Of a stretch of 50,058 bases of DNA, positions 1,755 to 45,730 are shown one piece after another. The first letter of the stretch is position 1. Every line of letters starts with the position of its first letter. The stretch comes from Fibrobacterota bacterium (lineage in GTDB: Bacteria > Fibrobacterota > Chitinivibrionia > Chitinivibrionales > FEN-1185), in assembly GCA_003165595.1 (NCBI GenBank), contig PLWQ01000019.1:75341-125398 (forward strand), in the 5' to 3' direction. Both the position numbers and the translations under genes were made by a program. A model generated the notes under the pieces. It saw only the letters and a program-made list of their open reading frames with translations, ran no database searches and was not told where the DNA came from.

Positions 1755-1788
1755 GAGTGAAGAACCCCGCAGCAAGCTGCGGGGCATC
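1755..1788 (+). repeat. REP-like palindrome, GTRAAGAACC family, copy 1
   Basis: GAGTGAAGAACC leads into the inverted repeat CCCCGCAGC-AA-GCTGCGGGG at 1765-1784, followed by CATC. The 5' flank GTGAAGAACC and the position of the stem match copies near 41348 (+ strand) and 45730 (- strand), where the flank is GTAAAGAACC. Stem sequence differs while stem structure is kept, as expected of REP/RAYT-type elements. No transposase of that type is in the window. Confidence 0.65.
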
Positions 1789-20012: not shown

Positions 20013-20411
20013 GTGGAAGTCAATCTGCTATGATGCCGCTCGATAGCCTGTCGCTCGCAGCGCTTTCGGAATGCGACACGGTCAATCTGCTGCGGTTCCA
20101 GCCGGTGATGCGGGACCGGGGCTCACATTTTGTCGAAGAAAATGTTTCGCGCTGCCGGGCGCGCCGTTGCGCCTGCCGTGCGTACCTTTAAGAGCCCCGG
20201 CGCCACGCGGCATGGGTTTGGAAGACGGGGCTGCGGATTGCCGAACGGGTGCAGCGATTTCAAGATAAGGATTTGAGCGCCCCGCTGCAATAGCAAAATA
20301 ACAAAAGCGCCGACCTCGCCCCGACCCCGCTCCTGAAGTGAGAAGGGCACGGTTTGTTCTTTAGGCACCTCTCAGGACCGAAATAAAGCCTCGGCCCTTA
20401 GCCGTGGTTGT
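20013..20411. other. Intergenic region with one possible tiny ORF
   Basis: A 399-base gap between cysE and the convergent isomerase-like gene. It contains a 52-codon frame, annotated separately. No terminator with a T-run, repeat or RNA gene was recognised. Confidence 0.5.
20033..20191 (+). CDS. Possible small ORF or gene remnant, 52 residues
   Basis: ATG at 20033 (another in-frame ATG at 20030) opens a frame ending at TAA 20189-20191. The N-terminal half has plain coding-like composition (PLDSLSLAALSECD); the C-terminus is rich in Arg and Cys (RCRARRCACR). No good SD site is seen. Not recognised; it could be the remains of a gene that once followed cysE. Confidence 0.2.
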   Translation: MPLDSLSLAALSECDTVNLLRFQPVMRDRGSHFVEENVSRCRARRCACRAYL

Positions 20412-21623
20412 TTACAAACGAAAGTTGGTAATGGGAACAAATGCCGTTTGAATCCCGTTTACAAAGCAACCGATGGTGTAGGAGCCCGGCGCAATGTGAC
20501 GCAGATCAAGCGACACGCTTCCTCTGCCCGCCGGTGATGTGACCGAAGTAATCCTGCCCATGTACCGGCCTCTGCTGTCTAAAAGCCGGAACCAAAGCGT
20601 TGCAGCCGCGGACACGGAATAGGAAATTTCGGCGCACCCGGCAAAGCTACGCACAAGAACAAATTGATTATTGAGATTCGCACGCACGCCGGTTCCCGCA
20701 ATGCCGGTTGTTTGACTCACTGCCGAGCGAACCTCAGCCAGGTATTTCGGCACCACAACAAGCGGATCGCCGGACAGTGCCTCGATGAGCAAATACCCCT
20801 GAAACGAACTGTTGCGCGCAAGCTGGATCACGGCCGGTAGGGTGGTCTCCACATTTTGCTTGAGGAGAAAATTGGTCGCATAGGGCAAGGCTTTCGCAAG
20901 ATCGGCGTCCAGGTTTGTGGTGGTGAACGATCCCGTATCCAGCAGAACCCCGAAATTGTCGGAATTGACAAGCGTGCAAAGTTCGATGATCTGGTCCGCC
21001 GTTTGAAGCATGTCGTTGTGGTTCTGCACGATCACTTTCACGCCAAGCGGCTTGCCGTAGTCCGCGCATTGACGGATGCTGTCGGCAATCCAGGCTGCAA
21101 CCTCATCCCATTTCGTTTCGTATCCGGCCGGCATGTTGCCGCTAAAGACGCGAATTGCCGGCGCGCCCATTTTGACCGCAACGTCGATCCATTTTTGCAC
21201 AAGCGCAACATCATTCGCCCTGCCCTGCGCATCGGCGTTGCCGAAATTATTGTTTACGCCCGTGCCGCTTATTGCAATGCCCAGATCAAGGGCTTTTGTT
21301 TTGAAAGCGGCAATTGCCGCGTCCGTGGGAACCGTCGGATAGCCGGGAAAGTAGTATCCCTGGGCATCGATTGCATCAAACTTGTTATTGGCGCAGAAGT
21401 CGAGCGCGTCGGCGAGGGTCATCTGGGGATTGGTTCCGGTAAGCTGCGCGTTGAACGAATAGCAATTCAGACTGATCCTGTAGGGTCCTTCATATCCGGC
21501 AGTTGCGAGCTGCCTTGCATCGGATTGGGAGTGAAACACGTGAATTCCCGCTGCCACGCCGCATGCCGACAAGGCGGCATCTTTGATGAATGTTCTTCGA
21601 TTGATTTCTGATAGCATCGGCAT
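20412..21623 (-). CDS. Tat-exported sugar isomerase/epimerase-like protein with T9SS-like tail
   Basis: A 403-residue protein. Its N-terminus NRRTFIKDAALSACG is a twin-arginine signal, so it should be exported folded. Residues about 45-290 look like the xylose isomerase-like TIM barrel: SLNCYSFN, the QNHND strand end, VLLDTGSF with an acidic metal ligand, and LIEAL near the end of the barrel. The last 85 residues resemble a type IX secretion C-terminal sorting domain (LWFRLLDSRGRYMG, LDLRHIAPGSYTIGCF). Sugar-phosphate isomerases are normally cytosolic, so an outer-surface role on carbohydrates is inferred. Substrate unknown. Confidence 0.7.
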   Translation of the reverse strand: MPMLSEINRRTFIKDAALSACGVAAGIHVFHSQSDARQLATAGYEGPYRISLNCYSFNAQLTGTNPQMTLADALDFCANNKFDAIDAQGYYFPGYPTVPTDAAIAAFKTKALDLGIAISGTGVNNNFGNADAQGRANDVALVQKWIDVAVKMGAPAIRVFSGNMPAGYETKWDEVAAWIADSIRQCADYGKPLGVKVIVQNHNDMLQTADQIIELCTLVNSDNFGVLLDTGSFTTTNLDADLAKALPYATNFLLKQNVETTLPAVIQLARNSSFQGYLLIEALSGDPLVVVPKYLAEVRSAVSQTTGIAGTGVRANLNNQFVLVRSFAGCAEISYSVSAAATLWFRLLDSRGRYMGRITSVTSPAGRGSVSLDLRHIAPGSYTIGCFVNGIQTAFVPITNFRL

Positions 21624-39711: not shown

Positions 39712-41295
39712 ATGAAGCAGGCAAACGAAGGAGCCGGGCGGGCAGGGGCGAGGCCGAGGTTGCTGCTTGTAAACCCATTCGCGGAAATAAAGCAATTTGC
39801 CTCGAACATCGGCTTTACGCGGCTTATCGGAAAGAAGGCGGGGACCACGCCGCTTGCCCTTCCATTGCTCGCCGCCCATGCGCCGGCCCATTGGGACGTG
39901 CGCATCATTGATGAGGAGATCGAGGCGATTCCGCTGGACATTTCCGCCGATCTTGTCGGAATCACCGCACTCACCACCACCATCGACCGCGCCTACCGGA
40001 TCGCCGACTCGTTTCGCAGCCGCGGCATCAAGGTTGTGATGGGTGGACCCACGGTCACCTATAATTCTTCCGAAGCGCTCCTGCATGCAGACAGCGTGGT
40101 GATCGGCGAGGCGGAACACGTGTGGAAGGAGATCCTTGATGGAGCGGAATCCGGCAGGCTTGAGCAGGTGTACCGCTCCGAAACACCCGTTGCGTACAAA
40201 CACTCTCCGATTCCTCGGTGGGACCTTGTGGACACACGGAATTTGGCGGCACTTCCGGTCCAGGTGTCGCGCGGCTGCCCGTTTCATTGCGATTTTTGTC
40301 TCGTGTCGCAGATGTTCGGACAAACCATGCGCTATCGCGACATAGACGACATTATCGCCGAAGTGCAGTCCCTTCCCAAGAAGACGGTGTTTTTCGTTGA
40401 CGACAATCTTACGGCAAACAAAAACTTTGCGCGCGGGCTCATGAAGCGTCTTATGCCGCTCGGACTGTCGTGGATAGGGCAGGTGAGCATTGAAATCGCC
40501 GAATTTCCGGACCTGCTTGCCGACATGGCGGCCGCGGGGTGCATGCACGTTCTGGTGGGACTGGAATCCGTAAACGAGGCCAGCCTTGGAGAAGCGCACA
40601 AACGGCAGAACAACGCCGCGCGCTACGCCGAGGCCATACGGAAAATCAACAATGCGGGCATTCACGTGAATGCCTCCATGATTGTCGGCTTCGATAACGA
40701 CACGCTCGCCGAATTCGACCGGATTCACGAATTCATGAATGCCGCGGATCTGTGGTATGTCAACCTGAACCTCCTTGACGCCATTCCGGGAACCGCGCTT
40801 CACCAGAGGATCGCGGCGCAGGGCCGGTGGTGCGGCCGGCCCAACAGGTTCACGGGCGGCATGTTTCCCACGATCCGGTATATGCACATGTCGCAGTCGG
40901 ACCTTTTCGACGCCTACTTGAATACCATGCGCGCAATTTACTCCTGGGAAGACCTGCTTCCGCGCATCGTCCGGCTGTTCTCAAGCGGCTGGTATCTGCG
41001 GCCCGAACGAAACAAGGACATCCATGCCTTTGACAAAATAAGAATGTCTATTGCAATGATCTGGAGATTCCTTGTCCGCGGCGAACCCGCCAAGCGACGG
41101 GTATTTTTGGAATTGTTCCGGCTTGTCCGCCTGCGAAAAGTTTCTCCCGAAAAGGTCGTCTTCTTCCTTCTCACGGTGGAGGGAATCCACCGGCTGTTTG
41201 CCGACATACAGCCGCTGCTTCCGGAGTGGCGCGCGCAGATCGCGCTTCGGGATTCGGGGCCGTTTTCCGTGACAAGGGAGTCCGGTGCCCTCTAA
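39712..41295 (+). CDS. B12-binding-type radical SAM protein
   Basis: 527 residues. The N-terminal 165 residues form a Rossmann-like cobalamin-binding type domain (LLLVNPF, GITALTTTIDRAYRIAD, VVMGGPTVT). The radical SAM core follows, with Cys189-x3-Cys193-x2-Cys196 in SRGCPFHCDFC, FFVDDNLTANK and LVGLESVNE. The His of the canonical DxHxxG B12 loop is not evident, so cobalamin may not be bound. The C-terminal 150 residues are helical (DUF4070-like). Related enzymes modify lipids, hopanoids or chlorins. Substrate unknown. Confidence 0.8.
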   Translation: MKQANEGAGRAGARPRLLLVNPFAEIKQFASNIGFTRLIGKKAGTTPLALPLLAAHAPAHWDVRIIDEEIEAIPLDISADLVGITALTTTIDRAYRIADSFRSRGIKVVMGGPTVTYNSSEALLHADSVVIGEAEHVWKEILDGAESGRLEQVYRSETPVAYKHSPIPRWDLVDTRNLAALPVQVSRGCPFHCDFCLVSQMFGQTMRYRDIDDIIAEVQSLPKKTVFFVDDNLTANKNFARGLMKRLMPLGLSWIGQVSIEIAEFPDLLADMAAAGCMHVLVGLESVNEASLGEAHKRQNNAARYAEAIRKINNAGIHVNASMIVGFDNDTLAEFDRIHEFMNAADLWYVNLNLLDAIPGTALHQRIAAQGRWCGRPNRFTGGMFPTIRYMHMSQSDLFDAYLNTMRAIYSWEDLLPRIVRLFSSGWYLRPERNKDIHAFDKIRMSIAMIWRFLVRGEPAKRRVFLELFRLVRLRKVSPEKVVFFLLTVEGIHRLFADIQPLLPEWRAQIALRDSGPFSVTRESGAL

Positions 41296-41347
41296 AGGCA
41301 CGGCTGCCGACCGAGGCACGCTCCTACGCATTTGCTATATTACTACA

Positions 41348-41376
41348 GTAAAGAACCACGGCCATAGGCCGTGGCT
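41348..41376 (+). repeat. REP-like palindrome, GTRAAGAACC family, copy 2
   Basis: GTAAAGAACC leads into CCACGGCC-ATA-GGCCGTGG (41356-41374), then CTTTG. Read from the 5' flank it matches the minus-strand copy at 45702-45730 at most of 28 positions, with compensating changes in the stem. Confidence 0.7.
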
Positions 41377-41383
41377 TTGATGA

Positions 41384-41480
41384 GGGGTAAAACCCCGAAA
41401 TCAAAGAAAAGCACGTACGTGCTTTAGCGTAACGTTGTGCATCACGCCCACAGGCGTGGTCTCCTTTTGAGAAACGCCAT
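41384..41480. repeat. Array of additional hairpins after the REP-like copy
   Basis: In order: GGGG-TAAAA-CCCC (41384-41396), the loop-free palindrome AAAGCACGTACGTGCTTT (41408-41425), CACGCC-CACA-GGCGTG (41443-41458), and a short GCC-ATA-GGC (about 41477-41486). All lie in the 220-base gap before the methyltransferase gene, so they would be in its 5' leader if transcribed from upstream. Confidence 0.6.
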
Positions 41481-41515
41481 AGGCTTTTCACCTGTACCCG
41501 TTTGCGCTGCACAAA

Positions 41516-42193
41516 ATGAATCTCCCATTCTTCAGTTCGCCTACAAAGCTGAACGTCACCGATTTTGTGCGTGCCGTGCGTCGCAGGCTCGAACAGAAAT
41601 GCGGGCTGGCGGGAGGGAAGTCGATCCTGTTTGTGCACGATGACGAAATTCCTCTTCTTGCCTGGCTTGCGGAGCAGAGCAGGGTTGGCATTGTAGAAAT
41701 CGGTTGTTTGTACGGCGGCAGCACGGCTCTTATCCTGGAGAACAAGAATTATTCTGTTCCCTTTACGTCAATTGATCCTTTTGTGCCCGATAGCATGGGA
41801 AAGGAAAACGCGGGCGGGGAGAAACAGGCCCTGCGCAACATCGCGGCCTATGCTGGACCGCTCGATAAACACAAATTTCGTTTGATCGCCGATTATAGCT
41901 ATCACGTTTCGCCCGGGTGGAATCAACCGATTGATCTGCTGTGGCTGGACGGCGATCATGAATACGACGGGGTAAAAAGGGATTTCGAGGAATGGCGGGG
42001 CTTTGTTGCCTCCGGCGGCAGGATCGCGCTGCACGATTCTCGAAGGCCCCAGGTCTCCAATATTCCGGAAAGCGAATACGATCGTGGCTGGCCCGGGCCA
42101 ACCACGCTTGCAAACGAGATAAGAACCGGGCATTCGGCGGAATTCTTCGTTGAAATGGAAGTTGGGAGTATTGTTGTTTTCCAAAAGAAATGA
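41516..42193 (+). CDS. Class I SAM-dependent methyltransferase (Methyltransf_24 type)
   Basis: 225 residues. SAM-binding glycine loop VEIGCLYGGST at about 61-71, SIDPFVPD after beta 2, LLWLDGDHEYDGVKRD (acidic motif II) and IALHDS at the end of the core. This is the O-methyltransferase-like group common beside polysaccharide or secondary-metabolite genes. No substrate can be assigned. The start has no strong SD. Confidence 0.8.
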   Translation: MNLPFFSSPTKLNVTDFVRAVRRRLEQKCGLAGGKSILFVHDDEIPLLAWLAEQSRVGIVEIGCLYGGSTALILENKNYSVPFTSIDPFVPDSMGKENAGGEKQALRNIAAYAGPLDKHKFRLIADYSYHVSPGWNQPIDLLWLDGDHEYDGVKRDFEEWRGFVASGGRIALHDSRRPQVSNIPESEYDRGWPGPTTLANEIRTGHSAEFFVEMEVGSIVVFQKK

Positions 42194-42233
42194 ACGGGCA
42201 AATCATGCACGACAACTTTAGCAGGAGGCGAGC

Positions 42234-45652: not shown

Positions 45653-45701
45653 CAACAAAGCGGGTTTCCGGACAGAATCTCATTTTGTGCTGCATTTATG
45701 A

Positions 45702-45730
45702 GCCGCGGCTATGGCCGCGGTTCTTTACCC
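45702..45730 (-). repeat. REP-like palindrome, GTRAAGAACC family, copy 3
   Basis: On the minus strand GTAAAGAACC leads into CCGCGGCC-ATA-GCCGCGGCT. It is the inverse-orientation partner of the copy at 41348. It lies exactly between the convergent lipoprotein and methyltransferase genes, overlapping the last bases of the latter, and can serve as a bidirectional terminator. Confidence 0.7.

Follow-up and report, generated by a model that had tools for sequence, protein, structure and literature searches.

The hairpin repeats described here form a transposase-orphan family of modular elements. Each element is 110-250 nt long and has fixed ends, several hairpins with covarying bases, and inner modules that can be swapped. 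The elements are probably non-autonomous and structured, moving as single-stranded DNA on a principle like that of IS200/IS605 and REP sequences. The observations behind this reading are their dispersal, their fixed ends, the lack of terminal inverted repeats and target duplications, a flank preference, conserved structure and modularity, as well as their absence from syntenic positions in a genome of the same genus (G001) and a strand bias that is linked to replication.

Copies in the window and across the genome

The window, i.e. the whole stretch of 50,058 nucleotides that was analysed, corresponds to C17:75341-125398 in a genome of 5.39 Mb and 42 contigs. One of its proteins matches DUF4423, a family typical of Fibrobacterota. 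The three palindromes listed in the earlier note are present, within two bases of where it had placed them, at 1757-1785 (+), 41348-41375 (+) and 45702-45728 (-). The common flank and stem position claimed for them hold as well: all three have the 8-nt leader GTRAAGAA, with the hairpin equally spaced from it. Covariation of the stem bases, also proposed there, is borne out by 96.1% of cells being paired and by a score of 0.489, vs 0.114 in shuffles and 0.010-0.143 in slid controls. A fourth copy, missed earlier, has the leader GTAAACAA and lies at 20388-20415 (-). Longer elements extend over 1757-1913, 41348-41519 and 45680-45728, and the palindromes make up no more than their 5' ends.

Copy 1 (1757-1913, +) is a full-length B-type element of 157 nt, running from GTGAAGAACC to TTTGGGATTCA; its ends were set from genomic copies, and its structure shows covariation in the B family. 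The 8-nt leader GTGAAGAA (1757-1764), of a kind conserved in all families, is followed by hairpin 1 (CCCCGCAG-CAAG-CTGCGGGG; 1765-1784), for which there is covariation, and by hairpin 2 (CTTCC...GGAAG; 1788-1805), which is helix 2 of the B-family covariation. The outer stem GTTTGC/GCAAAC pairs 1821-1826 with 1897-1902 and spans 1821-1902 (B-family helices 3 and 4). It encloses hairpin 3 (1830-1849) and an E module (about 1850-1892), delimited by the B-family helices and by module comparison.

Copy 2 (41348-41519, +) is a full-length A-type element of 172 nt, with ends GTAAAGAACC ... GCACAAAATGA according to the family alignment. It folds as DNA with -40 kcal/mol (z -5.72). The fold and the family alignment place hairpin 1 at 41356-41374; hairpins 2 and 2b occupy 41375-41425, and in other copies the hairpin 2 loop holds a further module, C. 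Copy 3 (45680-45728, -) is an A-type element of 49 nt with a large internal deletion that has left both ends (GTAAAGAACC ... GCACAAAATGA) in place. Copy 4 (20388-20415, -) consists of the 5' module of the A' type, GTAAACAACC plus hairpin (26.2 bits with the covariance model R1, see below), with a degenerate remainder.

Some of these copies touch reading frames. Copy 2 provides the next ORF (41516-42193) with its ATG, and in copies 3 and 4 the GTAA at 45725-45728 and 20412-20415, respectively, holds the stop codon of the preceding ORF. Insertion targeted to start or stop codons was considered and rejected, as such contacts are unsystematic over all copies.

The note had made its case depend on counts above chance throughout the genome, and these are clear-cut. 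GTRAAGAACC occurs 104 times (58+46), far above the 15 occurrences (11+4) of the reversed control pattern, and an A-type 27-mer with <=3 mismatches occurs 46 times, vs 0 for its control. A count by covariance model had also been suggested; R1, a model of leader plus hairpin, gives 91 matches at E<=0.05 in this genome, although it was built from the genome's own copies, which match by construction. Taking R1, BLAST and inner-module matches together, at least 145 loci carry pieces of an element.

The family is mostly intergenic; only 9 of the 59 placeable copies lie inside an ORF call. Over the placed copies, no consistent rule of orientation relative to neighbouring genes was found. Most copies are single units rather than inverted pairs of the REPIN/BIME kind, and 69 of 107 contig neighbours are on the same strand. 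No Rfam family fits the element, searches of plasmids, phages and viral contigs gave no match, and a literature search did not find the leader 12-mers printed in a bacterial context.

Structure, ends and relatives of the elements

Three types can be told apart. Type A (GTAAAGAACC ... GCACAAAATGA) measures 172-176 nt, and copies with an insert reach about 240 nt; type A' extends from GTAAACAACC to GGGCAATGA; and type B ([GT]TGAAGAACC ... GGGATT[CG]A) has 115 nt, 157 nt or more. Across families the leader reads GTRA(A)SAA, and the hairpin starts 8 nt from the 5' end. As single-stranded DNA the elements fold strongly, with median z values of -5.1 (A), -5.4 (A'), -4.3 (B) and -6.5 (the Chloroflexi elements described below), vs about 0 for flanks of equal length. 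The 27 pairs that make up the 4 helices of the B family are 90.9% paired, and their covariation score of 0.254 compares with 0.128 in shuffles (none of 500 reached it) and 0.026-0.139 in slid controls; type A copies are too alike for a good test of covariation.

Inner modules are exchanged between elements. In type A, the loop of hairpin 2 houses the C module (AARGGCAAACGACATAATG - small hairpin - ACTACC..ACCTTA); in A' it lies elsewhere, in type B it comes after hairpin 1, and elements of G001 have it too. Type B carries its D/E module (ACCRCGAYTACRACYGSATRYA..) either within the loop of one of two hairpins (1 or 3) or behind hairpin 3. Both phyla with the elements also have 'double foot' forms that are perfect palindromes (GTGAAGAACCCC..GGGGTTCTTCAC).

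A foreign, MITE-like insert of ~100 nt with the terminal inverted repeats ACAGACCGTGTCGTAATT / AATTATGACACAGTCTGGT was seen in the hairpin-3 loop of one A' element (L188, C15 around 17030).

The two ends of the elements differ, and no terminal inverted repeats join them; nor was a target duplication of 2-11 bp found at any tested offset. This largely refutes the view that the elements are MITEs moved by an ordinary insertion sequence of the DDE type. Small, non-autonomous, dispersed elements would suit such MITEs, and an orientation bias connected with the sliding clamp is known for some DDE insertion sequences (PMC5371812), yet with ends of this kind we regard the explanation as very improbable.

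The flanks are nevertheless not random. Of 93 full copies, 83 have an A immediately 5' of the element, usually with C or G in front of it (in Chloroflexi A or C), and in each family the element itself ends in [C/G/A]A. For comparison, the sites cut by TnpA_REP are CT and CA and, when the guide is altered, GA (PMC8266576).

No empty sites were found within the genome. G001 is collinear around copies 2 and 3 and has neither of them, but its intergenic DNA is too diverged to reveal an exact empty site. Around copy 2 it also lacks the adjacent Methyltransf_24 gene, with 107 bp in place of about 1 kb (window 41195-42218 vs G001:C19:38887-38994).

Among 40 relatives searched with R1, 31 gave no match; G001 has 11 matches, G002 (same family) has 2, and other members of the order have few or none. 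Type A was not found outside its own species, either in the 40 relatives or by exact pattern in a genome collection from which that species itself may have been left out. Weak A-type matches in G003, G037 and G039 were dismissed after their loci had been read, being chance matches or uninformative. Type B is more widespread; its full architecture is present in G001, G002 and G030, the last from a different family of the same order.

The 5' module of type B (leader, stem and the following CATCTTCC) was also found in another phylum, namely in the Anaerolineales MAG CSMAG_1101 and in Chloroflexi RBG_16_48_8. R1 has 71 matches in the former (2.3 Mb; G041) and 8 in the latter. These Chloroflexi elements are ~131 nt long and differ in their 3' part, with an outer stem GGAAAAAGCC/GGCTTTTTCC and the end CCCAT[AG]A; A precedes the 5' end in 20 of 20 full copies. 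As the Chloroflexi match was selected by pattern, identity at the pattern positions is to be expected. The informative points are that no more than two genomes in the collection matched, and that one of them holds dozens of dispersed copies with fixed ends.

Strand bias and the search for a mobiliser

Within contigs, elements tend to lie on the same strand: 253 of 392 pairs agree, a value that 0 of 20,000 simulations reached (p 5e-5). Examples are C41 (11 of 13 elements on one strand), C37 (10 of 12) and C13 (10 of 11). With uncorrected GC skew, 84 of 122 elements are on the C-rich strand, and the contig-level correlation is rho -0.68 (p 0.0008); contig-level p-values are the safer ones here, element-level values being non-independent. 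The genes of this genome (20 kb windows, L282-L321) are C-rich at third codon positions throughout, read in the coding direction, and raw skew therefore mixes gene direction with replication. Averaging the third-position skew over genes of both directions removes the effect of gene direction. The corrected skew is still anti-correlated with the element strand (contig-level rho -0.61, p 0.003), to which gene strand bias shows no relation (rho 0.05). In the Chloroflexi, 18 of 20 copies are on the C-rich strand, though copies there also tend to follow gene direction. That the strand of the elements tracks a replication-type skew, and not the direction of genes, points to single-strand, replication-coupled transposition.

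The same results bear on the idea that ordinary duplication has spread copies of a host structured RNA or regulatory element (a terminator, a leader or an sRNA). Such an element would be expected to fold strongly and to show compensatory changes, and some copies abut start or stop codons. However, position and orientation relative to genes are inconsistent, the strand follows replication rather than transcription, the ends are uniform in unrelated flanks and family A is confined to one species, which together make a host RNA improbable.

Like IS608 and ISDra2, which prefer the lagging-strand template and whose orientation follows replication, the elements have an orientation linked to replication; other IS families with sliding-clamp binding also have a reported orientation bias (PMC5371812). 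The polarity is a complication. If the G-rich strand is the leading strand, the GTRA strand would be the leading-strand template, the opposite of IS608; since this is the strand that bears the 5' flank preference, its position on the C-rich strand would then count against single-strand movement. Either the leading strand has been mis-assigned or the other strand is the active one.

An active complementary strand is what a rolling-circle type of transposition (Y2 HUH, IS91/Helitron-like) would imply, with hairpin 1 lying at the 3' terminus ahead of TTCTTYAC and a flanking T. Insertion into a G-rich lagging-strand template would agree with this, as would flank specificity beside the hairpin end. 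On the other hand, the terminal motifs usual for IS91 and Helitrons are absent, and the other end of the element likewise has conserved terminal bases. On balance this mode of movement is distinctly unlikely, though not quite to the degree of a host RNA.

In the case of single-strand movement of the IS200/IS605- and REP-like kind, which we favour, the leader GTRA(A)SAA together with hairpin 1 would be where the enzyme recognises the folded strand. One cut would follow the (S)A dinucleotide in the left flank and another the TSA (or ATAA) with which the element ends, and the element would be joined into single-stranded DNA exposed at replication forks. Diversification would proceed by swapping of hairpin and loop modules (C, D/E). 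We infer that the enzyme is an HUH/Y1-like protein working in trans that by now has been lost, is rare or has diverged too far; the cut sites and the strand taken to be active are putative in the same sense.

The genome has two Y1 transposase genes above the Pfam cut-off, at C33:25060 and C29:52187. The expectation of a RAYT/Y1 gene flanked by copies failed, as neither is bracketed by inverted copies. The C33 gene encodes an IS200-like TnpA of 151 aa and lies amid hairpin repeats (GTCAAGAACCCC..GGGGTTCGATAT, GTCAAGAACCCC...GGGGTTC and others), which are apparently its own repeat family; one A-type copy is found about 320 bp downstream. The dense repeats at this locus (L063:4500-5760) include AACCCCAACGGGGTTCGATAT, CCCGGGGCATCGCCCCGGGCC and TTGCCCCTTCAGGGCAA. 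No element copies are near the C29 gene. Its product (226 aa; L064:3777-4457) has palindromic coding repeats that belong to another family, the GLEPAP kind (GGGGCAGGTTCCAAACCTGCCCC).

Elements are also absent from the flanks of the Y1 genes in G001, G002 and G042, and no Y1 gene was detected in the Chloroflexi MAG with 71 copies, which may be incomplete. Apart from the A copy near the C33 gene, no tnpA or tnpB was seen inside or beside any copy, and no gene recurs beside copies, as would be expected of an autonomous parent, beyond common paralogues. The lack of a bracketed Y1 gene, and of any detected Y1 gene in the MAG, counts against the single-strand explanation; a Y1-like enzyme that acts in trans is possible.

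Relation to known mobile repeats

The earlier note had assigned the palindromes to REPs mobilised by RAYT transposases. The dispersed, high-copy, mobile-looking palindromes, their conserved leader and the signs of single-strand (HUH-like) movement stand; the assignment to REPs of the GT[AG]G kind with a flanked Y1 gene and short units does not. In its strict form, i.e. a classical REP/REPIN system mobilised by a RAYT (TnpA_REP) of the same genome, the explanation has several points in its favour: a hairpin preceded by a short, conserved 5' leader of the tetranucleotide type, over 100 copies in intergenic DNA, 'double foot' variants, cut-site-like CA/GA ends in the form of a 2-nt flank preference, and the C33 tnpA amid hairpins with its A copy downstream. 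By contrast, the tag is GTRA instead of GT[AG]G, and the 8-nt leader belongs to a multi-hairpin unit of 110-250 nt with a defined 3' end, whereas a REP is a palindrome of 20-40 nt. Furthermore, the copies are not mainly inverted pairs, none of them flank a RAYT, the hairpins around the C33 gene are a different repeat set, and the MAG rich in copies lacks a detected Y1 gene. By the features that define REP/RAYT systems the elements are not members, though several of their properties are REP-like, and we consider a classical system of this kind unlikely.

With IS200/IS605 the elements share the absence of terminal inverted repeats and target duplications, subterminal hairpins, a short 5' target preference and an orientation that follows replication; they differ in having swappable inner modules and no linked tnpA or tnpB, and possibly in an opposite polarity of the strand. 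In architecture, the one feature compared, BOX elements of Streptococcus pneumoniae are likewise modular dispersed repeats with fixed outer and optional inner modules, but belong to an unrelated organism, and here the modules are nested in hairpin loops. CGTC-tagged REPs (PMC3733652) are also REP-like without a dedicated transposase; they have another tag and short palindromes, and occur mainly in Alphaproteobacteria.

REP-like mobility would thereby no longer be confined to the GTAG and CGTC super-families but include a form that is GTRA-tagged, modular and built of several hairpins. With about 145 loci in one genome and 71 matches in another phylum, there is a natural collection for studying movement without a linked transposase; the single-strand hypothesis can be tested through the link between strand bias and replication, and module swapping within hairpin loops is an unusual route of diversification for small mobile DNA. 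A bolder reading, which we put forward tentatively and hold to be rather doubtful, is that of an undescribed class of modular mobile hairpins that spans phyla (Fibrobacterota-like and Chloroflexi), spreads at replication forks by means of an enzyme other than a recognisable Y1 transposase and hosts second-order modules (C, D/E) that themselves pass from the hairpin loops of one family to those of another.

An alternative partner for the leader is the 5' arm of hairpin 2, with which it can pair through AAAG/CTTT in type A, AAAC/GTTT in A' and GAAG/CTTC in type B and the Chloroflexi elements. Such pairing would compete with hairpin 2 and could possibly act as a structural switch.
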